Source: Chrysaora quinquecirrha
Taxonomy: Eukaryota; Cnidaria; Scyphozoa; Semaeostomeae; Pelagiidae
Assembly: GCA_014526335.1 (NCBI GenBank)
Contig: JACTAT010000040.1
Location: 8,497,119-8,561,118, forward strand
DNA: 64,000 nt
Reading direction: 5' to 3'
The notes below the pieces were generated by a model. The model saw only the letters and a program-made list of their open reading frames with translations. It did not search any database and had not been told where the DNA came from. Below, piece by piece: positions 46,746-64,000 of this stretch. The position numbers and the translations under genes are program-made. The number at the start of each line of letters is the position of its first letter. The first letter of the stretch is position 1.

Positions 46746-46769
46746 AACCAACCGATTGCGCAAAGAGAC
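46746..46769 (-). pseudogene. truncated tRNA-Asn remnant at the array boundary
   Basis: Only the 5' acceptor strand and D-arm are left (AACCGATTGCGC then AAAGAGAC on the plus strand). It marks the left edge of the array, which therefore ends inside a tRNA gene. Confidence 0.75.
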
Positions 46770-46848
46770 ATAATATACAAAAAGATTTAAGTTAAATAAA
46801 ATTTGGAATTGGTTTGGTTACTGCAAATATAAAAAAGAAGCCAAAAAA

Positions 46849-46872
46849 CGTCCCTGGATGGGCTTGAACCAT

Positions 46873-46916
<44 letters not shown>

Positions 46917-46922
46917 AGAGAC
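46849..46922 (-). tRNA. tRNA-Asn(GTT) copy 1
   Basis: Identical to consensus. A box at 46,904-46,915 and B box at 46,860-46,870; six T follow the 3' end. Confidence 0.92.
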
Positions 46923-46999
46923 CTGTTTGTAAAAGAAAGTTTCAAGCTATTCAATGTGGAATTGGATTGTTTAATGAAAATATGAAACAGAAGCCAAAA

Positions 47000-47073
47000 C
47001 GTCCCTGGATGGGCTTGAACCATCAACCTTTCGGTTAACAGCCGAACGCGCAAACCGATTGCACCACAGAGAC
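47000..47073 (-). tRNA. tRNA-Asn(GTT) copy 2
   Basis: A22T, C11T. Confidence 0.75.
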
Positions 47074-47152
47074 CTGGCAGTGAGACAAATTTTCAAGCTA
47101 TTCAATGCAGAATTGGATTGTTTACTGAAAATATAGAACAGAAGCTTAAAAA

Positions 47153-47226
47153 AGTCCCTGGATGGGCTTCAACCATCAACCTCTCGGTTAACAGCTGAAC
47201 GCGCTAACAGATTGCGCCACAAAGAC
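47153..47226 (-). tRNA. tRNA-Asn(GTT) copy 3, degenerate
   Basis: G74T, C57G (B box), A44G, G31A, G18T, C5T; probably inactive. Confidence 0.5.
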
Positions 47227-47294
47227 TGTTTGTGAGACAAAGTTTCAAGCTTTTCAATTTGGAATTGGTTTGTTTAATGAAAATATAAAACAGA

Positions 47295-47318
47295 CGTCCC
47301 TGGATGGGCTTGAACCAT

Positions 47319-47362
<44 letters not shown>

Positions 47363-47368
47363 AGAGAC
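47295..47368 (-). tRNA. tRNA-Asn(GTT) copy 4
   Basis: Identical to consensus; spacer shortened by about 10 bp so the first T run lies a few bases downstream. Confidence 0.9.
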
Positions 47369-47447
47369 TTGACAGACAGACAAATTTTCAAGCTATTCAA
47401 TGTGAAATTGGTTTGTTTAATGAAAATATAAAACAGAAGCCAAAAAA

Positions 47448-47471
47448 CGTCCCTGGATGGGCTTGAACCAT

Positions 47472-47514
<43 letters not shown>

Positions 47515-47521
47515 TAGAGGC
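47448..47521 (-). tRNA. tRNA-Asn(GTT) copy 5
   Basis: G7A, T2C, both in the acceptor stem. Confidence 0.75.
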
Positions 47522-47600
47522 CTGTTTGTAAGACAAAGTTTCAAGCTATTCAATGTGGAATTGGTTTGCTTAATGAAAATATGAAACAGAAGCCAAAAAA

Positions 47601-47674
47601 CGTCCCTGGATGGGCTTGAACCATCAACCTTTCGGTTAACATCCGAACGCGTTAACCGATTGCGCCACAGAGAC
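47601..47674 (-). tRNA. tRNA-Asn(GTT) copy 6
   Basis: C33A (anticodon loop), G23A. Confidence 0.75.
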
Positions 47675-47752
47675 CTGTTTGTAAAACAAAGTTTCAAGTT
47701 ATTAAATGTGGAATTGGTTTGCTTAATGAAAATATGAAACAGAAGCCAAAAA

Positions 47753-47776
47753 CGTCCCTGGATGCGCTTGAACCAT

Positions 47777-47820
<44 letters not shown>

Positions 47821-47826
47821 AGAGAC
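47753..47826 (-). tRNA. tRNA-Asn(GTT) copy 7
   Basis: C62G, disrupting one T-stem pair. Confidence 0.8.
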
Positions 47827-47905
47827 CTGTTTGTGAGACAAAGTTTCAAGCTATTCAATGCAGAATTGGTTTGTTTAATGAAAATACAAGACCGAAGCCA
47901 AAGGA

Positions 47906-47979
47906 CGTCCCTGGATGGGCTTGAACCATCAACCTTTCGGTTAAAAGCCGAACGCGCTAACCGATTGCGCCAGAGAGAC
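47906..47979 (-). tRNA. tRNA-Asn-derived copy 8 with anticodon TTT
   Basis: G35T changes the anticodon from GTT (Asn) to TTT (Lys) in an otherwise Asn-type body; G7C breaks the last acceptor pair. The change also creates TTTT inside the gene, which could stop polymerase III early. It is the only anticodon change seen in the array. Confidence 0.7.
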
Positions 47980-48058
47980 CTGTTTGTGAGACAAAGTTGC
48001 AAGCTATTCAATGCAGAGTAGGTTTTTTTACTGAAAATATAAAACAGAAGCCAAACAA

Positions 48059-48132
48059 CGCCCTTGGATGTGCTAGAACCATAAACCTTTCGGTTAACAG
48101 CTGAACGCGCTAACGGATTGCGCCACAGAGAC
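48059..48132 (-). tRNA. tRNA-Asn(GTT) copy 9, degenerate
   Basis: A72G, G69A, C62A, A58T, G50T, G31A, G18C; no T run directly after the 3' end. Confidence 0.45.
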
Positions 48133-48211
48133 CTGACAGTGAGACAAATTTTCAAGCTATTCAATGCAGAATTGGATTGTTTACTGAAAATATAGAACAG
48201 AAGCTTAAAAA

Positions 48212-48285
48212 CGTCCCTAGATGGGCTTGAACCATCAACCTCTCGGTTAACAGCAGAACGCGCTAACCAATTGCGCCACAGAGAC
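48212..48285 (-). tRNA. tRNA-Asn(GTT) copy 10
   Basis: C67T, A44G, G31T, C17T. Confidence 0.6.
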
Positions 48286-48364
48286 CTGTTTGTGAGACAA
48301 AGTTTCAAGCTATTCAATGTGGAATTGGTTTGCTTAATGAAAATATAAAACAGAAGCCAAAAAA

Positions 48365-48388
48365 CGTCCCTGGATGGGCTTGAACCAT

Positions 48389-48432
<44 letters not shown>

Positions 48433-48438
48433 AGAGAC
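48365..48438 (-). tRNA. tRNA-Asn(GTT) copy 11
   Basis: Identical to consensus. Confidence 0.92.
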
Positions 48439-48516
48439 CTGTTTCTAAGACAAAGTTTCAAGCTATTCAATGTGGAATTGGTTTATTTACTGAAAATATA
48501 AAACAGAAGCCAAAAA

Positions 48517-48540
48517 CCTCCCTGGATTGGCTTGAATTAT

Positions 48541-48584
<44 letters not shown>

Positions 48585-48590
48585 AGAGAC
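48517..48590 (-). tRNA. tRNA-Asn(GTT) copy 12
   Basis: C73G, C63A, G54A, G53A; T-stem and B box weakened. First unit of a duplicated block. Confidence 0.55.
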
Positions 48591-48668
48591 CTGTTTGTAA
48601 GACAAAGTTTGAAGCTATTCAATGTGGAATTGGTTTGTTTAATGAAAATATTAAACAGAAGCCAAAAA

Positions 48669-48742
48669 CGTCCCTGGATGGGCTTGAACCATCAACCTTT
48701 CGGTTAACATCCGAACTCGCTAACCGATTGCGCCACAGAGAC
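48669..48742 (-). tRNA. tRNA-Asn(GTT) copy 13
   Basis: C33A, C26A. Confidence 0.75.
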
Positions 48743-48821
48743 CTGTTTGTAAGACAAAGTTTCAAGCTATTCAATGTGGAATTGGTTTGCTTAATGAAAA
48801 TATGAAACAGAAGCCAAAAAA

Positions 48822-48845
48822 CGTCCCTGGATGGGTTTGAACCAT

Positions 48846-48889
<44 letters not shown>

Positions 48890-48895
48890 AGAGAC
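48822..48895 (-). tRNA. tRNA-Asn(GTT) copy 14
   Basis: G60A (T loop). Confidence 0.8.
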
Positions 48896-48974
48896 CTGTT
48901 TGTAAGACAAAGTTTCAAGCTATGAAATGTGGAATTGGTTTGTTTAATGAAAATATAAAACAGAAGCCAAAAAA

Positions 48975-48998
48975 CGACCCTGGATGGGCTTGAACCAT

Positions 48999-49035
<37 letters not shown>

Positions 49036-49048
49036 ACGCCACAGAGAC
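48975..49048 (-). tRNA. tRNA-Asn(GTT) copy 15
   Basis: A72T (T2-T72 mismatch), C13T. Confidence 0.7.
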
Positions 49049-49126
49049 CTGACAGTGACACAAATTTTCAAGCTATTCAATGCAGAATTGGTTTATTTAC
49101 TGAAAATATAAAACAGAAGCCAAAAA

Positions 49127-49150
49127 CGTCCCTGGATTGGCTTGAATTAT

Positions 49151-49194
<44 letters not shown>

Positions 49195-49200
49195 AGAGAC
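49127..49200 (-). tRNA. tRNA-Asn(GTT) copy 16
   Basis: C63A, G54A, G53A; block duplicate of copy 12. Confidence 0.6.
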
Positions 49201-49278
49201 CTGTTTGTAAGACAAAGTTTGAAGCTATTCAATGTGGAATTGGTTTGTTTAATGAAAATATTAAACAGAAGCCAAAAA

Positions 49279-49352
49279 CGTCCCTGGATGGGCTTGAACC
49301 ATCAACCTTTCGGTTAACATCCGAACTCGCTAACCGATTGCGCCACAGAGAC
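49279..49352 (-). tRNA. tRNA-Asn(GTT) copy 17
   Basis: C33A, C26A; block duplicate of copy 13. Confidence 0.75.
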
Positions 49353-49431
49353 CTGTTTGTAAGACAAAGTTTCAAGCTATTCAATGTGGAATTGGTTTGC
49401 TTAATGAAAATATGAAACAGAAGCCAAAAAA

Positions 49432-49455
49432 CGTCCCTGGATGGGTTTGAACCAT

Positions 49456-49499
<44 letters not shown>

Positions 49500-49505
49500 A
49501 GAGAC
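49432..49505 (-). tRNA. tRNA-Asn(GTT) copy 18
   Basis: G60A; block duplicate of copy 14. Confidence 0.8.
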
Positions 49506-49584
49506 CTGTTTGTAAGACAAAGTTTCAAGCTATGAAATGTGGAATTGGTTTGTTTAATGAAAATATAAAACAGAAGCCAAAAAA

Positions 49585-49608
49585 CGACCCTGGATGGGCT
49601 TGAACCAT

Positions 49609-49645
<37 letters not shown>

Positions 49646-49658
49646 ACGCCACAGAGAC
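49585..49658 (-). tRNA. tRNA-Asn(GTT) copy 19
   Basis: A72T, C13T; block duplicate of copy 15. Confidence 0.7.
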
Positions 49659-49736
49659 CTGACAGTGACACAAATTTTCAAGCTATTCAATGCAGAATTG
49701 GTTTATTTACTGAAAATATAAAACAGAAGCCAAAAA

Positions 49737-49760
49737 CGTCCCTGGATTGGCTTGAATTAT

Positions 49761-49804
<44 letters not shown>

Positions 49805-49810
49805 AGAGAC
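49737..49810 (-). tRNA. tRNA-Asn(GTT) copy 20
   Basis: C63A, G54A, G53A. Confidence 0.6.
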
Positions 49811-49888
49811 CTGTTTGTAAGACAAAGTTTGAAGCTATTCAATGTGGAATTGGTTTGTTTAATGAAAATTTGAAACAGAAGCCAAAAA

Positions 49889-49962
49889 CGTCCCTGGATG
49901 GGCTTGAACCATCAACGTTTCGGTTAACAGCCGAACGCGCTAACGGATTGCGGCACAGAGAC
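49889..49962 (-). tRNA. tRNA-Asn(GTT) copy 21
   Basis: G46C, G18C, G10C. Confidence 0.6.
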
Positions 49963-50070
49963 TTGACAGTGAGACAAATGATCAAGCTATTCAATGTGGA
50001 ATTGGTTTGTTTAATGAAAAGCTATGAAATGTGGAATTGGTTTGTTTAATGAAAATATGAAACAGAAGAA

Positions 50071-50221
50071 CGTCCCTGGATGGGCTTGAAAAACGTTAAC
50101 AGCCGAACCCTGGATGGGCTTGAACCATATCAAAAGAAGGACAAAAACCTTTCGGTTAACAGCCGAGCGCGCTAACCGATTGCACCACAGAGACCTGTTT
50201 GTAAGACAAAGCCACAGAGAC
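50071..50221 (-). pseudogene. rearranged tRNA-Asn copy 22
   Basis: A 3' fragment (50,071-50,107) jumps from the T-arm into the anticodon arm. A second copy (about 50,107-50,194) is split by spacer sequence inserted between T-arm and variable loop. A short duplicate of the 5' end follows at 50,211-50,221. Several unequal exchanges are needed to explain it. Confidence 0.8.
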
Positions 50222-50300
50222 CTGTTTGTAAGACAAAGCTTCAAGCTATTCAATGTGGAATTGGTTTGTTTAATGAAAATATGAAACAGAAGCCAAAAAA

Positions 50301-50324
50301 CGTCCCTGGATGGGCTTGAACCAT

Positions 50325-50368
<44 letters not shown>

Positions 50369-50374
50369 AGAGAC
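50301..50374 (-). tRNA. tRNA-Asn(GTT) copy 23
   Basis: Identical to consensus. Confidence 0.92.
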
Positions 50375-50449
50375 ATGTCTGTGAGACAAAGTTTTAAGCT
50401 ATTCAATGCAGAATTAGTTTACTGAAAATATAGAACAGAAGCCAAAAAA

Positions 50450-50473
50450 CGTCCCTGGGTGGGCTTGAACCAT

Positions 50474-50505
<32 letters not shown>

Positions 50506-50523
50506 GGATTGCGCCACAGAGAC
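50450..50523 (-). tRNA. tRNA-Asn(GTT) copy 24
   Basis: T65C (A51-C65 mismatch), G18C. Confidence 0.65.
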
Positions 50524-50602
50524 TTGACAGTGAGACAAATTTTCAAGCTATTCAATGTGGAATTGGTTTGTTTAATGAAAATATAAAAAAAAGGACAAAA
50601 AA

Positions 50603-50676
50603 CGTCCCTGGATGGGCTTGAACCATTAACCTTTCGGTTAACAGCCGAGCGCGCTAACCGATTGCACCACAGAGAC
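50603..50676 (-). tRNA. tRNA-Asn(GTT) copy 25
   Basis: G50A, T28C, C11T. Confidence 0.65.
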
Positions 50677-50755
50677 CTGTTTGTAAGACAAAGCTTCAAG
50701 CTATTCAATGTGGAATTGGTTTGTTTAATGAAAATATGAAACAGAAGCCAACAAA

Positions 50756-50783
50756 AATCCCTGGATGGGCTTGAACCATCAAG

Positions 50784-50823
<40 letters not shown>

Positions 50824-50829
50824 AGAGAC
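50756..50829 (-). tRNA. tRNA-Asn(GTT) copy 26
   Basis: G74T, C73T, G47C; the 3' end runs directly into the T tract. Confidence 0.6.
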
Positions 50830-50909
50830 CTGCTTGTGAGACAAAGTTAGAAGCTATTCAATGCAGAATTGGTTTGTTTAATGAAAATACAAGACCGAAG
50901 CAAAAACAA

Positions 50910-50983
50910 AGTCCCTGGATGGGCTTGAACCATCAACCTTTCGGTTAACAGCCGAACGCGCCAACCGATTGCGCCACAGAGAC
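50910..50983 (-). tRNA. tRNA-Asn(GTT) copy 27
   Basis: G74T (discriminator base), A22G. Confidence 0.7.
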
Positions 50984-51062
50984 CTGGTTGTAAGACAAAG
51001 TTTCAAGCTATTAAATGTGGAATTGGTTTGTTTAATGAGAATATGAAACAGAAGCCAAAAAA

Positions 51063-51086
51063 CGACCCTGGATGGGCTTGAACCAT

Positions 51087-51130
<44 letters not shown>

Positions 51131-51136
51131 AGAGAC
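51063..51136 (-). tRNA. tRNA-Asn(GTT) copy 28
   Basis: A72T. Confidence 0.75.
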
Positions 51137-51215
51137 CTGTTTGTAAGACAAAGTTTCAAGCTATTCAATGCAGAGTTGGTTTGTCTACTGAAAATATAAA
51201 ACAGAAGCCAAACAA

Positions 51216-51289
51216 CGTCCTTGGATGTGCTTGAACCATCAACCTTTCGGTTAACAGCTGAATGCGCTAACGGATTGCGCCACAGAGAC
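51216..51289 (-). tRNA. tRNA-Asn(GTT) copy 29, degenerate
   Basis: G69A, C62A, G31A, G27A, G18C; no adjacent T run. Confidence 0.5.
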
Positions 51290-51368
51290 TTGACAGTGAG
51301 ACAAATTTTCAAGCTATTCAATGTGGAATTGGTTTGTTTAATGAAAATATAAAAAGAAGGACAAAAAA

Positions 51369-51392
51369 CGTCCCTCAATGGGCTTGAATCAT

Positions 51393-51436
<44 letters not shown>

Positions 51437-51442
51437 AGAGAC
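51369..51442 (-). tRNA. tRNA-Asn(GTT) copy 30
   Basis: C67G, C66T, G54A. Confidence 0.6.
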
Positions 51443-51521
51443 TTGACAGTGAGACAAATTTTAAAGCTATTCAATGTGGAATTGGTTTGTTTAATGAAAA
51501 TATAAAAAAAAGGACAAAAAA

Positions 51522-51595
51522 CATCCCTGGATGGGCTCGAACCATCAACCTTTCGGTTAACAGCCGAACGCGCCAACCGATTGCGCCACAGAGAC
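51522..51595 (-). tRNA. tRNA-Asn(GTT) copy 31
   Basis: C73T, A58G, A22G; A58G restores the GGTTCGA form of the B box. Confidence 0.7.
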
Positions 51596-51674
51596 CTGTT
51601 TGTAAGACAAAGTTTCAAGCTATTCAATGTGGAATAGGTTTGTTTAATGAGAATATGAAACAGAAGCCAAAAAA

Positions 51675-51698
51675 CGTCCCTGGGTGGGCTTGAACCAT

Positions 51699-51742
<44 letters not shown>

Positions 51743-51748
51743 AGAGAC
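51675..51748 (-). tRNA. tRNA-Asn(GTT) copy 32
   Basis: T65C. Confidence 0.75.
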
Positions 51749-51827
51749 ATGTTTCTAAGACAAAGTTTCAAGCTATTCAATGTCAAATTGGTTTGTTTAA
51801 TGGAAATATAAAACAGAAGCCAAAAAA

Positions 51828-51901
51828 CGCCCCTGGATGGGCTTGAACCATCAACCTTTCGGTTAACAGCCGAACGCACTAACCGATTGCGCCACAGAGA
51901 C
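51828..51901 (-). tRNA. tRNA-Asn(GTT) copy 33
   Basis: A72G, C24T. Confidence 0.75.
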
Positions 51902-51980
51902 TTGACAGTGAGACAAATTTTAAAGCTATTCAATGTGGAATTGGTTTGTTTAATGAAAATATAAAAAAAAGGACAAAAAA

Positions 51981-52054
51981 CATCCCTGGATGGGCTTGAA
52001 CCATCAACCTTTCGGTTAACAGCCGAACGCGCCAACCGATTGCGCCACAGAGAC
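51981..52054 (-). tRNA. tRNA-Asn(GTT) copy 34
   Basis: C73T, A22G. Confidence 0.75.
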
Positions 52055-52133
52055 CTGTTTGTAAGACAATGTTTCAAGCTATTCAATGTGGAATTGGTTT
52101 GTTTAATGAGAATATGAAACAGAAGCCAAAAAA

Positions 52134-52157
52134 CGTCCCTGGATGGGCTTGAACCAT

Positions 52158-52201
<44 letters not shown>

Positions 52202-52207
52202 AGAGAC
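52134..52207 (-). tRNA. tRNA-Asn(GTT) copy 35
   Basis: Identical to consensus. Confidence 0.92.
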
Positions 52208-52285
52208 CTGTTTGTAAGACAAAGTTTCAAGCTATTCAATGTGGAATTGGTTTGTTTAATGAAAATATGAAACAGAAGCCAAAAA

Positions 52286-52359
52286 CGTCCCTGGATGGGC
52301 TTCAACCATCAACCTTTCGGTTAACATCCGAACGCGCTAACCGACTGCGCCACAGAGAC
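52286..52359 (-). tRNA. tRNA-Asn(GTT) copy 36
   Basis: C57G (B box), C33A, A15G. Confidence 0.6.
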
Positions 52360-52438
52360 CTGTTTGTCAGACAAAGTTAGAAGCTATTCAATGCAGAATT
52401 GGTTTGTTTAATGAAAATACAAGACCGAAGCAAAACAA

Positions 52439-52462
52439 CGTCCCTGGATGGGCTTGAACCAT

Positions 52463-52494
<32 letters not shown>

Positions 52495-52512
52495 AGATTG
52501 CGCCACAGATAC
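52439..52512 (-). tRNA. tRNA-Asn(GTT) copy 37
   Basis: G18T, C3A. Confidence 0.65.
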
Positions 52513-52590
52513 CTGTTTGTAAGACAAACTTTCAAGCTTTTCAATGTGGAATTGGTTTGTTTAATGAAAATATGAAACAGAAGCCAAAAA

Positions 52591-52664
52591 CGTCCTTGGA
52601 CGGGCTTGAACCATCAACCTTTCGGTTAACATCCGAACGCGCTAACCGACTGCGCCACAGAGAC
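52591..52664 (-). tRNA. tRNA-Asn(GTT) copy 38
   Basis: G69A, A64G, C33A, A15G. Confidence 0.6.
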
Positions 52665-52743
52665 CTGTTTGCCAGACAAAGTTAGAAGCTATTCAATGCA
52701 GAATTGGTTTGTTTAATGAAAATACAAGACCGAAGCAAAACAA

Positions 52744-52767
52744 CGTCCCTGGATGGGCTTGAACCAT

Positions 52768-52806
<39 letters not shown>

Positions 52807-52817
52807 ACCACAGAGAC
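52744..52817 (-). tRNA. tRNA-Asn(GTT) copy 39
   Basis: C11T. Confidence 0.8.
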
Positions 52818-52893
52818 CTGTTTGTGAGACAAAGTTTCAAGCTATTCAATGCAGAGTTGGTTTGTTTACTGAAAATATAAAACAGAAGCCAAA

Positions 52894-52950
52894 GAACCAT
52901 CAACCTTTCGGTTAACAGCAGAACGCGCTAACGGATTGCGCCACAGAGAC
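52894..52950 (-). pseudogene. truncated tRNA-Asn copy 40
   Basis: The 3' acceptor strand and part of the T-arm are deleted together with adjoining spacer; G31T and G18C in what remains. Confidence 0.85.
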
Positions 52951-53029
52951 TTGACAGTGAGACAAATTTTCAAGCTATTCAATGTGGAATTGGTTTGTTT
53001 AATGAAAATATAAAAAAGAAGGACAAAAA

Positions 53030-53103
53030 CGTCCCTGGATGGGCTTGAACCATTAACCTTTCGGTTAACAGCCGAGCGCGCTAACCGATTGCACCACAGA
53101 GAC
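53030..53103 (-). tRNA. tRNA-Asn(GTT) copy 41
   Basis: G50A, T28C, C11T. Confidence 0.65.
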
Positions 53104-53182
53104 CTGTTTGTAAGACAAAGCTTCAAGCTATTCAATGTGAAATTGGTTTGTTTAATGAAAATATGAAACAGAAGCCAACAAA

Positions 53183-53206
53183 AATCCCTGGATGGGCTTG
53201 AACCAT

Positions 53207-53250
<44 letters not shown>

Positions 53251-53256
53251 AGAGAC
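53183..53256 (-). tRNA. tRNA-Asn(GTT) copy 42
   Basis: G74T, C73T. Confidence 0.65.
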
Positions 53257-53335
53257 CTCCTTGTGAGACAAAGTTAGAAGCTATTCAATGCAGAATTGGT
53301 TTGTTTAATGAAAATACAAGACCGAAGCAAAACAA

Positions 53336-53409
53336 AGTCCCTGGATGGGCTTGAACCATCAACCTTTCGGTTAACAGCCGAACGCGCCAACCGATTGCGC
53401 CACAGAGAC
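53336..53409 (-). tRNA. tRNA-Asn(GTT) copy 43
   Basis: G74T, A22G. Confidence 0.7.
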
Positions 53410-53488
53410 CTGTTTGTAAGACAAAGTTTCAAGCTATTCAATGTGGAATTGGTTTGTTTAATGAGAATATGAAACAGAAGCCAAAAAA

Positions 53489-53512
53489 CGTCCCTGGATG
53501 GGCTTGAACCAT

Positions 53513-53556
<44 letters not shown>

Positions 53557-53562
53557 AGAGAC
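53489..53562 (-). tRNA. tRNA-Asn(GTT) copy 44
   Basis: Identical to consensus. Confidence 0.92.
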
Positions 53563-53819: not shown

Positions 53820-53858
<39 letters not shown>

Positions 53859-57042: not shown

Positions 57043-57073
<31 letters not shown>

Positions 57074-57157: not shown

Positions 57158-57231
57158 CGTCCCTGGATGGGCTTGAACCATCAACCTTTCGGTTAACATC
57201 CGAACTCGCTAACCGATTGCGCCACAGGGAC
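57158..57231 (-). tRNA. tRNA-Asn(GTT) copy 68
   Basis: C33A, C26A, T4C; T4C turns the T4-G70 wobble into C-G. Confidence 0.7.
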
Positions 57232-57309
57232 CTGTTTGTAAGACAAAGTTTCAAGCTATTCAATGTGGAATTGGTTTGCTTAATGAAAATACGAAACAAA
57301 AGCCAAAAA

Positions 57310-57333
57310 CGTCCCTGGATGGGCTTGAACCAT

Positions 57334-57377
<44 letters not shown>

Positions 57378-57383
57378 AGAGAC
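57310..57383 (-). tRNA. tRNA-Asn(GTT) copy 69
   Basis: Identical to consensus. Confidence 0.92.
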
Positions 57384-57462
57384 CTGTTTGTGAGACAAAG
57401 TTAGAAGCTATTCAATGCAGAGTTGGTTTGTTTACTGAAAATATAAAACAGAAGCCAAACAA

Positions 57463-57536
57463 CGTCCTTGGATGTGCTTGAACCATCAAACTTTCGGTTA
57501 ACAGCTGAACGCGCTGACGGATTGCGCCACAGAGAC
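57463..57536 (-). tRNA. tRNA-Asn(GTT) copy 70, degenerate
   Basis: G69A, C62A, G47T, G31A, T21C, G18C. Confidence 0.45.
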
Positions 57537-57616
57537 TTGACAGTGAGACAAATTTTCAAGCTATTCAATGTGGAATTGGTTTGTTTAATGAAAATATAAA
57601 AAAGAAGGACAAAAAA

Positions 57617-57690
57617 CTTCCCTGGATGGGCTTGAACCATCAACCTTTCGGTTAACAGCCGAACGAGCTAACCGATTGCGCCACAGAGAC
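57617..57690 (-). tRNA. tRNA-Asn(GTT) copy 71
   Basis: C73A, G25T. Confidence 0.65.
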
Positions 57691-57770
57691 CTGTTCGTAA
57701 GACAAAGTTTCAAGCTATCCAATGCAGAATTGGTTTGTTTAATGAAAATATAAAAAAGAAGGACAAAAAA

Positions 57771-57794
57771 CGTCCCTGGATGGGCTTGAACCAT

Positions 57795-57838
<44 letters not shown>

Positions 57839-57844
57839 AGAGAC
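57771..57844 (-). tRNA. tRNA-Asn(GTT) copy 72
   Basis: Identical to consensus. Confidence 0.92.
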
Positions 57845-57923
57845 CTGTTTGTTAGACAAAGTTTCAAGCTATTCAATGTGGAATTGGTTTGTTTAATGAA
57901 AATATAAAACAGAAGCCAAAAAA

Positions 57924-57947
57924 CGACCCTGGATGGGCTAGAACCAT

Positions 57948-57984
<37 letters not shown>

Positions 57985-57997
57985 ACGCCACAGAGAC
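57924..57997 (-). tRNA. tRNA-Asn(GTT) copy 73
   Basis: A72T, A58T (B box), C13T. Confidence 0.6.
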
Positions 57998-58075
57998 CTG
58001 ACAGTGAGGCAAATTTTCAAGCTATTCAATGCAGAATTGGTTTATTTACTGAAAATATAAAACAGAAGCCAAAAA

Positions 58076-58112
58076 CGTCCCTGGATGGGCTTGAACCATC
58101 AACCTTTCGGTA

Positions 58113-58143
<31 letters not shown>

Positions 58144-58149
58144 AGAGAC
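58076..58149 (-). tRNA. tRNA-Asn(GTT) copy 74
   Basis: A38T. Confidence 0.75.
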
Positions 58150-58227
58150 CTGTTTGTAAGACAAAGTTTGAAGCTATTCAATGTGGAATTGGTTTGTTTA
58201 ATGAAAATATTAAAAAGAAGCCAAAAA

Positions 58228-58301
58228 CGTCCCTGGATGGGCTTGAACCATCAACCTTTCGGTTAACATCCGAACTCGCTAACCGATTGCGCCACAGGGA
58301 C
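58228..58301 (-). tRNA. tRNA-Asn(GTT) copy 75
   Basis: C33A, C26A, T4C. Confidence 0.7.
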
Positions 58302-58379
58302 CTGTTTGTAAGACAAAGTTTCAAGCTATTCAATGTGGAATTGGTTTGCTTAATGAAAATATGAAACAAAAGCCAAAAA

Positions 58380-58403
58380 CGTCCCTGGATGGGCTAGAAC
58401 CAT

Positions 58404-58440
<37 letters not shown>

Positions 58441-58453
58441 ACGCCACAGAGAC
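58380..58453 (-). tRNA. tRNA-Asn(GTT) copy 76
   Basis: A58T, C13T. Confidence 0.65.
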
Positions 58454-58530
58454 CTGACAGTGAGACAAATTTTCAAGCTATTCAATGCAGAATTGGTTTA
58501 TTTACTGAAAATATAAAACAGAAGCCAAAA

Positions 58531-58554
58531 CGTCCCTGGATGGGCTTGAACCAT

Positions 58555-58598
<44 letters not shown>

Positions 58599-58604
58599 AG
58601 AGAC
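58531..58604 (-). tRNA. tRNA-Asn(GTT) copy 77
   Basis: Identical to consensus; a four-T terminator follows. Confidence 0.92.
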
Positions 58605-58683
58605 CTGTTTGTAAGACAAAGTTTCAAGCTATTCAATGTGGAATTGGTTTGTTTAATGAAAATATAAAACAGAAGCCAAAAAA

Positions 58684-58757
58684 CGACCCTGGATGGGCTT
58701 GAACCATCAACCTTTCGGTTAACAGCAGAACGCGCTAACCGATTGCGCCACAGAGAC
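58684..58757 (-). tRNA. tRNA-Asn(GTT) copy 78
   Basis: A72T, G31T. Confidence 0.65.
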
Positions 58758-58836
58758 CTGTTTGTAAGACAAAGTTTCAAGCTATTCAATGTGGAATTGG
58801 TTTGTTTAATGAAAATATAAAACAGAAGCCAAAAAA

Positions 58837-58860
58837 CGTCCCTGGATGGGCTTGAACCAT

Positions 58861-58904
<44 letters not shown>

Positions 58905-58910
58905 AGAGAC
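58837..58910 (-). tRNA. tRNA-Asn(GTT) copy 79
   Basis: Identical to consensus. Confidence 0.92.
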
Positions 58911-58989
58911 ATGTTTGTAAGACAAAGTTTCAAGCTATTCAATGTGGAATTGGTTTGTTTAATGAAAATATAAAACAGAAGCCAAAAAA

Positions 58990-59013
58990 CGTCCCTGGAT
59001 GGGCTTGAACCAT

Positions 59014-59057
<44 letters not shown>

Positions 59058-59063
59058 AGAGAC
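58990..59063 (-). tRNA. tRNA-Asn(GTT) copy 80
   Basis: Identical to consensus. Confidence 0.92.
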
Positions 59064-59142
59064 TTGACAGTGAAACAAAATTTCAGGCTATTCAATGTGG
59101 AATTGGTTTGTTTAATGATAATATAAAACAAAAGAAAAAAAA

Positions 59143-59216
59143 CGTCCCTGGATGGGCTTCAACCATCAACCTTTCGGTTAACAGCGGAACGCGCTAACCG
59201 ATTGGGCCACAGAAAC
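59143..59216 (-). tRNA. tRNA-Asn(GTT) copy 81, degenerate
   Basis: C57G, G31C, G12C, C3T. Confidence 0.5.
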
Positions 59217-59295
59217 CTGCCAGTGAGACAAATTTTCAAGCTATTCAATGCAGAACTGGATTGTTTACTGAAAATATAGAACAGAAGCTTAAAAA

Positions 59296-59369
59296 CGTCC
59301 CTGGATGGGCTTGAACCATTAACCTTTCGGTTAACAGCCGAGCGCGCTAACCGATTGCACCACAGAGAC
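59296..59369 (-). tRNA. tRNA-Asn(GTT) copy 82
   Basis: G50A, T28C, C11T. Confidence 0.65.
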
Positions 59370-59448
59370 CTGTTTGTAAGACAAAGCTTCAAGCTATTCA
59401 ATGTGGAATTGGTTTGTTTAATGAAAATATGAAACAGAAGCCAACAAA

Positions 59449-59472
59449 AATCCCTGGATGGGCTTGAACCAT

Positions 59473-59516
<44 letters not shown>

Positions 59517-59522
59517 AGAGAC
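59449..59522 (-). tRNA. tRNA-Asn(GTT) copy 83
   Basis: G74T, C73T; first of a four-copy block repeated 613 bp later. Confidence 0.65.
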
Positions 59523-59601
59523 CTGTTTGTAAGACAAAGTTTCAAGCTATTCAATGCAGAGTTGGTTTGTCTACTGAAAATATAAAACAGAAGCCAAACA
59601 A

Positions 59602-59675
59602 CGTCCTTGGATGTGCTTGAACCATCAACCTTTCGGTTAACAGCTGAATGCGCTAACGGATTGCGCCACAGAGAC
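59602..59675 (-). tRNA. tRNA-Asn(GTT) copy 84, degenerate
   Basis: G69A, C62A, G31A, G27A, G18C. Confidence 0.5.
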
Positions 59676-59755
59676 TTGACAGTGAGACAAATTTTCAAGC
59701 TATTCAATGTGGAATTGGTTTGTTTAATGAAAATATAAAAAAGAAGGACAAAAAA

Positions 59756-59779
59756 CGTCCCTGAATGGGCTTGAACCAT

Positions 59780-59823
<44 letters not shown>

Positions 59824-59829
59824 AGAGAC
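59756..59829 (-). tRNA. tRNA-Asn(GTT) copy 85
   Basis: C66T. Confidence 0.8.
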
Positions 59830-59908
59830 CTGTTTGTAAGACAAAGTTTCAAGCTATTCAATGTGGAATTGGTTTGTTTAATGAAAATATAAAACAGAAG
59901 CCAAAAAA

Positions 59909-59982
59909 CGACCCTGGATGGGCTTGAACCATCAACCTTTCGGTTAACAGCCGAACGTGCTAACCGATTGCGCCACAGAGAC
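59909..59982 (-). tRNA. tRNA-Asn(GTT) copy 86
   Basis: A72T, G25A. Confidence 0.7.
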
Positions 59983-60061
59983 CTGTTTGTAAGACAAAGT
60001 TTCAAGCTATTCAATGTGGAATTGGTTTGTTTAATGAAAATATGAAACAGAAGCCAACAAA

Positions 60062-60085
60062 AATCCCTGGATGGGCTTGAACCAT

Positions 60086-60129
<44 letters not shown>

Positions 60130-60135
60130 AGAGAC
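60062..60135 (-). tRNA. tRNA-Asn(GTT) copy 87
   Basis: G74T, C73T; block duplicate of copy 83. Confidence 0.65.
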
Positions 60136-60214
60136 CTGTTTGTAAGACAAAGTTTCAAGCTATTCAATGCAGAGTTGGTTTGTCTACTGAAAATATAAAA
60201 CAGAAGCCAAACAA

Positions 60215-60288
60215 CGTCCTTGGATGTGCTTGAACCATCAACCTTTCGGTTAACAGCTGAATGCGCTAACGGATTGCGCCACAGAGAC
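60215..60288 (-). tRNA. tRNA-Asn(GTT) copy 88, degenerate
   Basis: G69A, C62A, G31A, G27A, G18C; block duplicate of copy 84. Confidence 0.5.
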
Positions 60289-60368
60289 TTGACAGTGAGA
60301 CAAATTTTCAAGCTATTCAATGTGGAATTGGTTTGTTTAATGAAAATATAAAAAAGAAGGACAAAAAA

Positions 60369-60392
60369 CGTCCCTGAATGGGCTTGAACCAT

Positions 60393-60436
<44 letters not shown>

Positions 60437-60442
60437 AGAGAC
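60369..60442 (-). tRNA. tRNA-Asn(GTT) copy 89
   Basis: C66T; block duplicate of copy 85. Confidence 0.8.
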
Positions 60443-60521
60443 CTGTTTGTAAGACAAAGTTTCAAGCTATTCAATGTGGAATTGGTTTGTTTAATGAAAA
60501 TATAAAACAGAAGCCAAAAAA

Positions 60522-60595
60522 CGACCCTGGATGGGCTTGAACCATCAACCTTTCGGTTAACAGCCGAACGTGCTAACCGATTGCGCCACAGAGAC
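60522..60595 (-). tRNA. tRNA-Asn(GTT) copy 90
   Basis: A72T, G25A; block duplicate of copy 86. Confidence 0.7.
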
Positions 60596-60674
60596 CTGTT
60601 TGTAAGACAAAGTTTCAAGCTATTCAATGTGGAATTGGTTTGTTTAATGAAAATATGAAACAGAAGCCAAAAAA

Positions 60675-60748
60675 CGTCCCTGGATGGGTTTGAACCATCA
60701 ACCTTTCGGTTAACAGCCGAACGAGCTAACCGATTGCGCCACAGAGGC
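60675..60748 (-). tRNA. tRNA-Asn(GTT) copy 91
   Basis: G60A, G25T, T2C. Confidence 0.65.
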
Positions 60749-60827
60749 CTGTTTGTAAGACAAAGTTTCAAGCTATGAAATGTGGAATTGGTTTGTTTAA
60801 TCAAAATATAAAACAGAAGCCAAAAAA

Positions 60828-60901
60828 CGACCCTGGATGGGCTTGAACCATCAACCTTTCGGTTAACAGCCGAACGAGCTAACCGATTGCGCCACAGAGA
60901 C
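60828..60901 (-). tRNA. tRNA-Asn(GTT) copy 92
   Basis: A72T, G25T. Confidence 0.7.
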
Positions 60902-60981
60902 CTGTTTGTAAGACAAAGTTTCAAGCTATCCAATGCAGAATTGGTTTGTTTAATGAAAATATAAAAAAGAAGGACAAAAAA

Positions 60982-61055
60982 CGTCCCTGGATGGGCTTGA
61001 ACCATTAACCTTTCGGTTAACAGCCGAACGAGCTAACCGATTGCGCCACAGAGAC
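60982..61055 (-). tRNA. tRNA-Asn(GTT) copy 93
   Basis: G50A, G25T. Confidence 0.7.
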
Positions 61056-61134
61056 CTGTTTGTAAGTCAAAGTTTCAAGCTATTCAATGTGGAATTGGTT
61101 TGTTTAATGAAAATATGAAACAGAAGCCAAAAAA

Positions 61135-61208
61135 CGTCCCTGGATGGGTTTGAACCATCAACCTTTCGGTTAACAGCCGAACGTGCTAACCGATTGCGCC
61201 ACAGAGAC
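61135..61208 (-). tRNA. tRNA-Asn(GTT) copy 94
   Basis: G60A, G25A. Confidence 0.75.
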
Positions 61209-61287
61209 CTGTTTGTAAGACAAAGTTTCAAGCTATGAAATGTGGAATTGGTTTGTTTAATGAAAATATAAAACAGAAGCCAAAAAA

Positions 61288-61311
61288 CGACCCTGGATGG
61301 GCTTGAACCAT

Positions 61312-61348
<37 letters not shown>

Positions 61349-61361
61349 ACGCCACAGAGAC
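61288..61361 (-). tRNA. tRNA-Asn(GTT) copy 95
   Basis: A72T, C13T. Confidence 0.7.
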
Positions 61362-61439
61362 ATGTTTCTAAGACAAATTTTCAAGCTATTCAATGCAGAA
61401 TTGGTTTATTTACTGAAAATATAAAACAGAAGCCAAAAA

Positions 61440-61463
61440 CGTCCCTGGATGGGCTTGAACCAT

Positions 61464-61507
<44 letters not shown>

Positions 61508-61513
61508 AGAGAC
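61440..61513 (-). tRNA. tRNA-Asn(GTT) copy 96
   Basis: Identical to consensus. Confidence 0.92.
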
Positions 61514-61592
61514 CTGTTTGTTAGACAAAGTTTCAAGCTATTCAATGTGGAATTGGTTTGTTTAATCAAAATATAAAACAGAAGCCAAAAAA

Positions 61593-61616
61593 CGACCCTG
61601 GATGGGCTAGAACCAT

Positions 61617-61653
<37 letters not shown>

Positions 61654-61666
61654 ACGCCACAGAGAC
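61593..61666 (-). tRNA. tRNA-Asn(GTT) copy 97
   Basis: A72T, A58T, C13T. Confidence 0.6.
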
Positions 61667-61744
61667 CTGACAGTGAGACAAATTTTCAAGCTATTCAATG
61701 CAGAATTGTTTTATTTACTGAAAATATAAAACAGAAGCCAAAAA

Positions 61745-61781
61745 CGTCCCTGGATGGGCTTGAACCATCAACCTTTCGGTA

Positions 61782-61812
<31 letters not shown>

Positions 61813-61818
61813 AGAGAC
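61745..61818 (-). tRNA. tRNA-Asn(GTT) copy 98
   Basis: A38T. Confidence 0.75.
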
Positions 61819-61896
61819 CTGTTTGTAAGACAAAGTTTGAAGCTATTCAATGTGGAATTGGTTTGTTTAATGAAAATATTAAACAGAAGCCAAAAA

Positions 61897-61970
61897 CGTC
61901 CCTGGATGGGCTTGAACCATCAACCTTTCGGTTAACATCCGAACTCGCTAACCGATTGCGCCACAGGGAC
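61897..61970 (-). tRNA. tRNA-Asn(GTT) copy 99
   Basis: C33A, C26A, T4C. Confidence 0.7.
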
Positions 61971-62048
61971 CTGTTTGTAAGACAAAGTTTCAAGCTATTC
62001 AATGTGGAATCGGTTTGCTTAATGAAAATATGAAACAAAAGCCAAAAA

Positions 62049-62072
62049 CGTCCCTGGATGGGCTTGAACCAT

Positions 62073-62116
<44 letters not shown>

Positions 62117-62122
62117 AGAGAC
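62049..62122 (-). tRNA. tRNA-Asn(GTT) copy 100
   Basis: Identical to consensus. Confidence 0.92.
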
Positions 62123-62201
62123 CTGTTTGTTAGACAAAGTTTCAAGCTATTCAATGTGGAATTGGTTTGTTTAATGAAAATATAAAACAGAAGCCAAAAA
62201 A

Positions 62202-62225
62202 CGACCCTGGATGGGCTAGAACCAT

Positions 62226-62262
<37 letters not shown>

Positions 62263-62275
62263 ACGCCACAGAGAC
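62202..62275 (-). tRNA. tRNA-Asn(GTT) copy 101
   Basis: A72T, A58T, C13T. Confidence 0.6.
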
Positions 62276-62353
62276 CTGACAGTGAGACAAATTTTCAAGC
62301 TATTCAATGCAGAATTGGTTTATTTACTGAAAATATAAAACAGAAGCCAAAAA

Positions 62354-62377
62354 CGTCCCTGGATGGGCTTGAACCAT

Positions 62378-62421
<44 letters not shown>

Positions 62422-62427
62422 AGAGAC
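62354..62427 (-). tRNA. tRNA-Asn(GTT) copy 102
   Basis: Identical to consensus. Confidence 0.92.
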
Positions 62428-62506
62428 CTGTTTGTAAGACAAAGTTTCAAGCTATTCAATGTGGAATTGGTTTGTTTAATGAAAATATAAAACAGAAGCC
62501 AAAAAA

Positions 62507-62580
62507 CGACCCTGGATGGGCTTGAACCATCAACCTTTCGGTTAACAGCGGAACGTGCTAACCGATTGCGCCACAGAGAC
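62507..62580 (-). tRNA. tRNA-Asn(GTT) copy 103
   Basis: A72T, G31C, G25A. Confidence 0.6.
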
Positions 62581-62659
62581 CTGACAGTGAGAAAAATTTT
62601 CAAGATATTCAATGCAGAATTGGTTTGTTTAATGAAAATATAAAACAGAAGCCAAAAAA

Positions 62660-62683
62660 CGTCCCTTGATGGGCTTGAACCAT

Positions 62684-62727
<44 letters not shown>

Positions 62728-62733
62728 AGAGAC
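62660..62733 (-). tRNA. tRNA-Asn(GTT) copy 104
   Basis: C67A. Confidence 0.75.
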
Positions 62734-62808
62734 ATGTTTCTGAGACAAAGTTTTAAGCTATTCAATGCAGAATTAGTTTACTGAAAATATAGAACAGAAG
62801 CCAAAAAA

Positions 62809-62832
62809 CGTCCCTGGATGGGCTTGACTATG

Positions 62833-62875
<43 letters not shown>

Positions 62876-62881
62876 AGAGAC
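62809..62881 (-). pseudogene. tRNA-Asn copy 105 with damaged T-arm
   Basis: 73 nt; one base lost and two changed in the T-arm and B box (plus strand GCTTGACTATGAACC). Confidence 0.7.
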
Positions 62882-62960
62882 ATGTTTGTAAGACAAAGTT
62901 TCAAGCTATTCAATGTGGAATTGGTTTGTTTAATGAAAATATAAAACAGAAGCCAAAAAA

Positions 62961-63034
62961 CGTCCCTGTATGGGCTTGAACCATCAACCTTTCGGTTAAC
63001 AGCAGAACGCGCTAACCGATTGCGCCACAGAGAC
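62961..63034 (-). tRNA. tRNA-Asn(GTT) copy 106
   Basis: C66A, G31T. Confidence 0.65.
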
Positions 63035-63113
63035 CTGTTTGTAAGACAAAGTTTCAAGCTATGAAATGTGGAATTGGTTTGTTTAATGAAAATATAAAAC
63101 AGAAGCCAAAAAA

Positions 63114-63187
63114 CGACCCTGGATGGGCTTGAACCATCAACCTTTCGGTTAACAGCTGAACGCGCTAACGGATTACGCCACAGAGAC
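63114..63187 (-). tRNA. tRNA-Asn(GTT) copy 107
   Basis: A72T, G31A, G18C, C13T. Confidence 0.5.
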
Positions 63188-63266
63188 CTGACAGTGAGAC
63201 AAATTTTCAAGCTATTCAATGTGAAATTGGTTTGTTTAATGGAAATATAAAACAGAAGAAAGAAAA

Positions 63267-63301
63267 CGTCCCTGGATTGGCTTGAATTATCAACCTTTCG
63301 T

Positions 63302-63334
<33 letters not shown>

Positions 63335-63340
63335 AGAGAC
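63267..63340 (-). tRNA. tRNA-Asn(GTT) copy 108
   Basis: C63A, G54A, G53A, C40A. Confidence 0.5.
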
Positions 63341-63418
63341 CTGTTTGTAAGACAAATTTCCAAGCTATTCAATGCAGAATTGGTTTATTTACTGAAATTA
63401 TAAAACAGAAGCCAAAAA

Positions 63419-63492
63419 CGTCCCTGGATGGGCTTGAACCATCAACCTTTCGGTTAACAGCCGCACGCGCTAACCGAATGCGTCACAGAGAC
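63419..63492 (-). tRNA. tRNA-Asn(GTT) copy 109
   Basis: T29G, A15T, G10A. Confidence 0.6.
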
Positions 63493-63571
63493 CTGTTTGT
63501 GAGACAAAGTTTCAAGCTATCCAATGCAGAATTGGTTTGTTTAATGAAAATATAAAACAGAAGCCAAAAAA

Positions 63572-63645
63572 CGTCCCTTGATGGGCTTGAACCATCAACC
63601 TTTCGGTTAACAGCGGAACGTGCTAACCGATTGCGCCACAGAGAC
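63572..63645 (-). tRNA. tRNA-Asn(GTT) copy 110
   Basis: C67A, G31C, G25A. Confidence 0.6.
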
Positions 63646-63724
63646 CTGACAGTGAGAAAAATTTTCAAGATATTCAATGCAGAATTGGTTTGTTTAATGA
63701 AAATATAAAACAGAAGCCAAAAAA

Positions 63725-63748
63725 CGTCCCTTGATGGGCTTGAACCAT

Positions 63749-63792
<44 letters not shown>

Positions 63793-63798
63793 AGAGAC
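63725..63798 (-). tRNA. tRNA-Asn(GTT) copy 111
   Basis: C67A. Confidence 0.75.
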
Positions 63799-63873
63799 AT
63801 GTTTCTGAGACAAAGTTTTAAGCTATTCAATGCAGAATTAGTTTACTGAAAATATAGAACAGAAGCCAAAAAA

Positions 63874-63946
63874 CGTCCCTGGATGGGCTTGACTATGAAC
63901 CTTTCGGTTAACAGCCAAACACGCTAACCGATTGCGCCACAGAGAA
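63874..63946 (-). pseudogene. tRNA-Asn copy 112 with damaged T-arm
   Basis: 73 nt; the same T-arm lesion as copy 105, plus C30T, C26T and G1T. Copies 104-105 and 111-112 are one duplicated pair. Confidence 0.7.
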
Positions 63947-64000
63947 ATGTTTCTAAGACAAAGTTTCAAGCTATTCAATGTGGAATTGGTTTGTTTAATG

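Follow-up and report, generated by a model that had tools for sequence, protein, structure and literature searches.

A tRNA-Asn(GTT) tandem array, one of several single-isoacceptor arrays in the scyphozoan Chrysaora quinquecirrha, that is probably functional in aggregate

Introduction

Is a head-to-tail row of 112 copies of one transfer RNA (tRNA) gene a bank of genes that works as a sum, or is it a satellite repeat that only began as a tRNA gene? The question is raised by a stretch of 64,000 nucleotides from the jellyfish Chrysaora quinquecirrha (assembly GCA_014526335.1, contig JACTAT010000040.1, here C324; other contigs are labelled likewise), henceforth "the window" (C324:8497119-8561118, in a genome of 328 Mb in 740 contigs), the right-hand part of which is occupied by copies of tRNA-Asn(GTT). 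The answer that we favour, with some reserve, is that these copies form a tandem array transcribed by RNA polymerase III (Pol III), one of several single-isoacceptor arrays in this genome, and that the array is functional in aggregate.

The array within the window

Searching the window with a 74-nt tRNA-Asn(GTT) consensus (nhmmer) returned 112 copies between positions 46849 and 63945, all on the minus strand, with each unit being made of the 74-nt tRNA gene and a 79-bp spacer and the units following each other head to tail in a single direction. The spacing is even (153 bp in 64 of the 111 copy-to-copy steps, 152 in 27, 154 in 11 and some other value in 9, i.e., 152-154 bp in 102/111), and the one isoacceptor stands on the same strand in 112/112 copies. 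An earlier note, made from the sequence of the window without database searches, had already put the array at about 112 copies on a head-to-tail 153-bp monomer running off the right edge, all of which was borne out, the run reaching 162 copies when followed beyond the window. ARAGORN made 106 tRNA calls here (105 Asn(GTT) and a single Lys(TTT)), and the gathering score of the Rfam model RF00005 was reached by 109 of the 112 copies, so that the outcome which the note had named as damaging to its reading, nearly all copies scoring as pseudogenes, is not what the Rfam model returned.

The same note had described 17 consensus copies with intact A and B boxes and terminators; exactly 17 of the 112 copies are indeed identical to the consensus, but intact boxes are a property of most copies and not of all, as the B-box pattern is present in 85 copies, the A-box pattern in 87, and both of them together with a TTTT in 72. 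The T run itself is nearly universal: TTTT lies within 25 nt downstream of 111 of the 112 window copies (the copy starting at 50194 being the only one without it) and behind all 237 Asn units of 120-230 bp in the whole locus. Within the array, Tandem Repeats Finder (TRF) reported the 153/459-bp unit and, apart from it, nothing but three local rows with periods of 35, 27 and 133 bp, and protein-coding open reading frames (ORFs) were rejected as candidates, the frames running straight through the tRNA repeat.

The whole locus and its mirror image

On the window contig, the minus-strand Asn run (8543967-8568504) keeps one orientation with no N between its 162 copies, and it is followed on the right by 5,000 N, three degenerate Asn copies at 8576000 and a tRNA-Cys(GCA) array of 141 minus-strand copies on a 182-bp unit (8583732-8609223). 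The centre of the locus is marked by 500 N at 8609316-8609815 (both N runs are taken as gaps), beyond which the same order is seen inverted, with 51 Cys copies on the plus strand, three degenerate Asn copies, and Asn runs of 3, 31 and 48 copies that extend to 8651238; the main Asn runs thus hold 162 copies in one arm vs 82 in the other. In total, the locus contains 250 Asn and 192 Cys copies according to nhmmer, whereas ARAGORN called 222 Asn(GTT), 174 Cys(GCA) and 11 copies with other anticodons; the four tiles holding the Cys arrays gave 187 Rfam matches over the cut-offs, the 150 listed of which are tRNA.

The flanks of the two arms (46,742 and 49,688 bases) align inverted and collinear in 17 blocks that total 29,983 columns, with an identity of 95.3% without and 92.9% with gap columns (79.8-99.0% for single blocks). 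The stretch between the Asn and Cys arrays is mirrored as well, and the mirror extends at least to C324:8400001, which corresponds to 8759770-8760724 (93% over 952 bases). One astacin exon compared arm against arm differs at 8/130 residues and 18/390 bases, which is much for alleles. The arms could be two divergent haplotypes that were joined head to head, or else the product of a real inverted duplication; the central run of 500 N favours a contig join. Some inverted array pairs do look real, as no N interrupts the 2.2 kb that separate the minus and plus copies of a Lys(CTT) array on C96. At all four of the array loci in which both orientations were seen (C324, C467, C96 and the His locus on C1), the minus copies lie on the left and the plus copies on the right.

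Scattered copies carry a changed anticodon: Lys(TTT) twice in the Asn arrays; Ser(GCT) three times, Trp twice, and Tyr, Phe, TCA and ACA once each in the C324 Cys arrays; and TCA once in a Gly array (C141:12100-12171). If expressed, such copies could misread codons. A mixed-isotype array was rejected for the loci read, since these other anticodons are scattered single calls within pure arrays.

The variant spectrum and what it says about selection

Evidence that bears on the question comes from comparing how variants are distributed between the tRNA part and the spacer, for which both arms were pooled (237 Asn units of 120-230 bp with 74 tRNA and 79 spacer sites, and 190 Cys units with 71 and 111). 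The mean minor-variant frequency is 0.031 in the tRNA vs 0.077 in the spacer for Asn (a difference as large was seen in 0 of 20,000 site permutations) and 0.043 vs 0.071 for Cys (p 0.0044). Rare variants are equally dense in both parts, whereas variants present in at least 16 copies lie mostly in the spacer: the ratio of variants in 1-15 to those in at least 16 copies is 115:4 in the tRNA and 108:28 in the spacer for Asn (Fisher p = 2e-5) and 121:4 and 175:27 for Cys (p = 0.0017), p-values which are to be read as guides. Gaps, too, affect fewer copies in the tRNA part (10 of 237 for Asn, 28 of 190 for Cys) than they do in the spacer (68 and 70, respectively). Damaged tRNA variants arise, yet they do not spread. 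The anticodon of the Asn units is nearly fixed (mean minor frequency of 0.004), and their A-box and B-box stretches (0.037 and 0.030) are kept no better than the tRNA as a whole. Furthermore, the T stem reads GGTGG/CCACC in 5/5 of the tRNA-Asn genes that ARAGORN found outside the array and GATGG/CCATC in the array consensus, a compensated change which suggests that the repeat at some time passed through a functional state.

Several observations, however, weigh against a working array. Pair-breaking changes are not depleted in the Asn copies (254 seen vs 207 +- 10 expected under random placement), and at least one broken pair is present in 134 of the 227 scored copies (10/237 gapped copies having been dropped). 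At G-C pairs, C>T changes, which keep a wobble pair, are not commoner than G>A changes, which break it (0.023 vs 0.029 for Asn, 0.026 vs 0.039 for Cys), so that selection on single copies, sought through pair breakage and wobble bias in the Asn and Cys arrays, was not found. The number of distinct variant alleles per site is nearly equal in tRNA and spacer (1.61 vs 1.72 for Asn, 1.76 vs 1.82 for Cys); among tRNA-length circular windows, the tRNA ranks third lowest of 153 for Asn but only 15th of 182 for Cys; part of the Asn spacer gaps are changes in T-run length; and the 16-copy cut was set on the bins of the same analysis, in which linked-type variants are not independent. A TTTT within 25 nt is found in only 37 of the 190 Cys units (99/190 have one anywhere in the spacer), and transcription of the Cys array is less sure because the remaining 153/190 are without a near T run.

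As common variants shun the tRNA part while single-copy pair breakage is not depleted, selection would seem to see the sum of good copies rather than any one of them. In the mechanism that we propose, each unit would be transcribed separately from its internal A and B boxes, with transcription ending at the unit's own T run, and the array would supply a large dose of tRNA-Asn template. Its copy number would shift by unequal exchange of multi-unit blocks, and selection on the sum would tolerate single damaged copies and keep bad variants from taking over. The role in gene dosage, one of those considered in the earlier note, gains support from the variant spectrum, the TTTT behind the units and the compensated T-stem change; these same data make its alternative of a decayed satellite less likely, though the undepleted pair breakage in single copies still speaks for it. 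The variant spectrum amounts to a simple test, requiring one assembly only, of a dead satellite vs a gene bank under collective selection; we know of no prior use of it on tRNA arrays, though no search was aimed at that point.

Other arrays in the genome

Tandem B-box pairs spaced at 141-171 bp number 2,284 in the genome vs 3 for the reversed pattern, and the array pattern is therefore not a product of chance. Of the first 100 such pairs, 92 belong to arrays of His, Pro or Gly and the other 8 do not (ARAGORN found no tRNA at one of these 8); further isoacceptors may well be arrayed, given that these first 100 are what is covered here. A B-box followed by TTTT was matched 2,396 times vs 61 for the reversed pattern, a figure into which some sites enter twice or three times and which is no gene count, and the genome-wide Rfam search, in which 63 of 35,636 loose candidates were scored, is no census either. 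Among the loci read, the arrayed isoacceptors are Asn GTT, Cys GCA, Lys TTT, Lys CTT, Pro AGG, His GTG and Gly TCC (Table 1). The view of the earlier note that a single-isoacceptor array is unusual has to be corrected accordingly: there are several in this genome, and they have been published for Hydractinia and Phytophthora infestans.

Canonical tRNA-Asn genes are present outside the array (five by ARAGORN, on C467, C623 (two), C366 and C168), so the array supplements a basic set instead of substituting for it. Six additional weaker matches (nhmmer) stand about 0.2 kb apart on C623 and C366, so that two of the four places hold small decaying Asn groups. A tRNA-derived short interspersed nuclear element, the dispersed copies of which should be alike outside the tRNA as well, was considered and rejected, as outside C324 a two-unit query matches one tRNA only, over 70-77 bp, in 7/7 of the matches listed from among the best-scoring candidates.

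Table 1. The Asn array and its parts in the window (positions without a contig) and tRNA arrays on other contigs
Feature	Location	Strand	Evidence
tRNA-Asn(GTT) array, 112 copies, 153-bp unit, extends past right edge	46746..64000	-	ARAGORN, TRF, nhmmer, Rfam
Degenerate partial unit at 3' (left) array edge; not an nhmmer-scored copy	46746..46848	-	by eye
Leftmost full tRNA-Asn copy, 68.8 bits as exact-consensus copies, T run behind	46849..46922	-	nhmmer, Rfam, eye
Array copy with anticodon TTT (Lys) replacing GTT	47906..47979	-	ARAGORN
Locally disturbed stretch: 92-nt tRNA call, 27-bp tandem duplication, steps of 232 and 180 bp	50104..50260	-	ARAGORN, TRF, nhmmer
Truncated copy, query positions 2-57	52894..52949	-	nhmmer
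Rightmost window copy, low score of 31.5 bits	63874..63945	-	nhmmer, Rfam
Lys(TTT) array, 149-bp unit	C467	both strands	ARAGORN
Lys(TTT) array, about 206-bp unit	C268		ARAGORN
Lys(CTT) array, 184-bp unit	C96	7 minus, 6 plus	ARAGORN
Pro(AGG) array, 171-bp unit	C1		ARAGORN
Second Cys(GCA) locus: two neighbouring copies 172 bp apart, with scattered pattern matches over 97 kb	C2		ARAGORN (the two copies)
His(GTG) arrays, 149-bp unit	C1 and C65		ARAGORN
Gly(TCC) array, about 162-bp unit	C141		ARAGORN

Alternative explanations

The alternative that survives best, though we regard it as unlikely, is a satellite of tRNA-gene origin, now mostly silent, the units of which are kept alike by concerted evolution alone. 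Apart from the undepleted broken pairs, the canonical tRNA-Asn genes elsewhere that could do the decoding, and the scarcity of near T runs in the Cys units, it can claim the mode of unit turnover, as the Asn units do behave like a satellite: they are about 10% apart (mean pairwise differences of 0.099 and 0.102 in the two arms, with similar spacers among the copies), and their closest kin stand several to tens of units off (the commonest lags to the nearest relative are 4, 41, 7 and 40 in one arm and 30, 6 and 22 in the other), which points to block-wise exchange. Each arm is homogenised separately: units lie at median distances of 0.0065 and 0.0131 from their nearest relative in the same arm, far less than the 0.033-0.039 that part them from their best match across the two arms. 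A silent cluster would not be without precedent either, the SYY cluster of Arabidopsis being reported as silent in most tissues (PMC12308677). What a satellite does not readily account for is the near lack of common variants in the tRNA part of both arrays, the lower number of gapped copies there than in the spacer, and the compensated T-stem change. Heavy methylation decay was considered as well, with no strong sign of it in the Asn arrays: the CpG observed/expected ratio is 0.99 in both of them, compared to 0.58-0.66 in the Cys arrays and 0.78-0.81 in the flanks. Turnover in blocks, which the favoured reading likewise counts in its support, is also indicated by a reverse-transcriptase stretch (Pfam RVT_1; by eye of the non-long-terminal-repeat kind) that is present at two places in the plus-arm Asn array, C324:8633613-8636600 and 8641200-8644179, the two being 99.1% alike.

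It is improbable that the array is kept not for decoding but for chromatin or replication (as a boundary, for fork pausing or for TFIIIC clustering) or for the tRNA fragments that it would supply, even if tRNA clusters elsewhere have been tied to replication forks and instability (PMC2888827) and a human tRNA tandem repeat has been implicated as a boundary (PMC4041453), because a nearly fixed anticodon next to A and B boxes kept no better than the rest of the tRNA fits decoding more than it fits a need for the boxes alone. That the array owes its form to collapse or inflation during assembly is hardly credible: N runs of 5,000 and 500 do lie beside and in the arrays and an inverted second copy does follow the 500 N, but Asn units so far apart on average and carrying singleton variants are not products of stuttering, eight more loci show other isoacceptors or units, and the uninterrupted 162 copies contain no N, although the exact copy number is uncertain.

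Neighbouring features

The window also contains a 36-bp tandem repeat of 74 copies (30268-32930; TRF, ORF list), which is open in several frames and could be either a satellite or the coding sequence of a protein with a 12-residue repeat, and exons of astacin metalloproteases at 11567-11935, 14838-15257 and 28677-29045 (Pfam PF01400) and at 34885-35244 (by eye), perhaps representing several paralogues beside the array. A hAT transposase ORF (35811-37109) has matches that include Penaeus indicus (72%), Rhopilema (55%), Hydra, and one at 61% which, judging from the record label, we take to be Aurelia. Two short tandem repeats of 2.2 copies each, with periods of 157 and 158 bp, are located at 7462-7801 and 9675-10015 (TRF), and a pair of stretches near them is inverted. 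Elsewhere in the genome, COX1 with TGA in frame was seen on C179, C424 and C192 in complete and in partial form, possibly as nuclear copies of mitochondrial DNA; next to the C179 copy (read under code 4), COX2 adjoins in the opposite direction (Pfam). Among 7,998 candidates scored against this COX1, the two best named matches, both at 92%, are the scyphozoans Aurelia sp. 4 and Acromitus, and those that follow at 82-84% include Cassiopea, stalked jellyfish and a sponge.

Comparison with known systems

Arrays of tRNA genes have been described in several lineages. In Entamoeba, long tandem arrays also involve many isotypes, but their units hold 1-5 tRNA types, and in E. histolytica nearly the whole complement of tRNA genes is arrayed (PMC2652664); short tandem repeats separate the tRNA genes in E. 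histolytica and E. dispar, other Entamoeba species being described as without them in the same source, and TRF found none of this type inside the jellyfish array. The SYY and tRNA-Cys clusters of Arabidopsis are similarly built of tandem units, the number of which varies among ecotypes in the Cys cluster (PMC10701932); they have, however, far fewer copies (27 SYY units, PMC12652284; 4 tRNA-Cys, PMC10701932), and the SYY unit is mixed, with tissue-specific expression having been demonstrated (PMC12308677). Among the clusters reported for Nematostella and teleosts, fifty and more clustered tRNA genes in a cnidarian are a likeness, whereas adjacent tRNA pairs in Nematostella mostly differ in isotype (PMC2888827).

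Arrays of the single-isoacceptor kind are those of Phytophthora infestans and Hydractinia. The former has 271 tRNA-Cys(GCA) genes in one array, and its tRNAs on unplaced contigs were suspected of belonging to divergent haplotypes, but it is an oomycete, its Cys unit measures 513 nt, and the remaining 36% consists of dimeric and trimeric units (PMC9584435). Hydractinia, a cnidarian albeit a hydrozoan, has tandem arrays of tRNA and other non-coding RNA, and the paper describing them in 2024 reports RNA arrays from Nematostella and not from other cnidarian genomes (PMC11067881). No report of a scyphozoan single-tRNA array was found in the literature searched, and the tRNA parts of a jellyfish genome paper (PMC6599738) and of a medusozoan review (PMC9112765) name no such arrays.

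More tentatively, and with considerable doubt on our own side, most isoacceptors of this jellyfish might reside in pure arrays, each passed on and selected as one unit of dose, the alleles of which would differ in copy number (162 vs 82 Asn copies, if the arms are alleles), with array length setting the capacity for translation as it does in ribosomal DNA. Taken together with Hydractinia and Nematostella, this would make arrayed tRNA genes an ancient feature of cnidarians that assemblies of short reads have failed to show. In its one isoacceptor, one direction and even spacing, its similar spacers and the several isoacceptors arrayed alongside it, the array would, judged by sequence and with expression as a prediction, be of the same kind as those of Hydractinia and P. 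infestans. The arrangement itself is already published for the cnidarian Hydractinia, and what is new is the scyphozoan case, which extends isoacceptor-pure tRNA arrays to a scyphozoan and bears on the age of the trait within Cnidaria.

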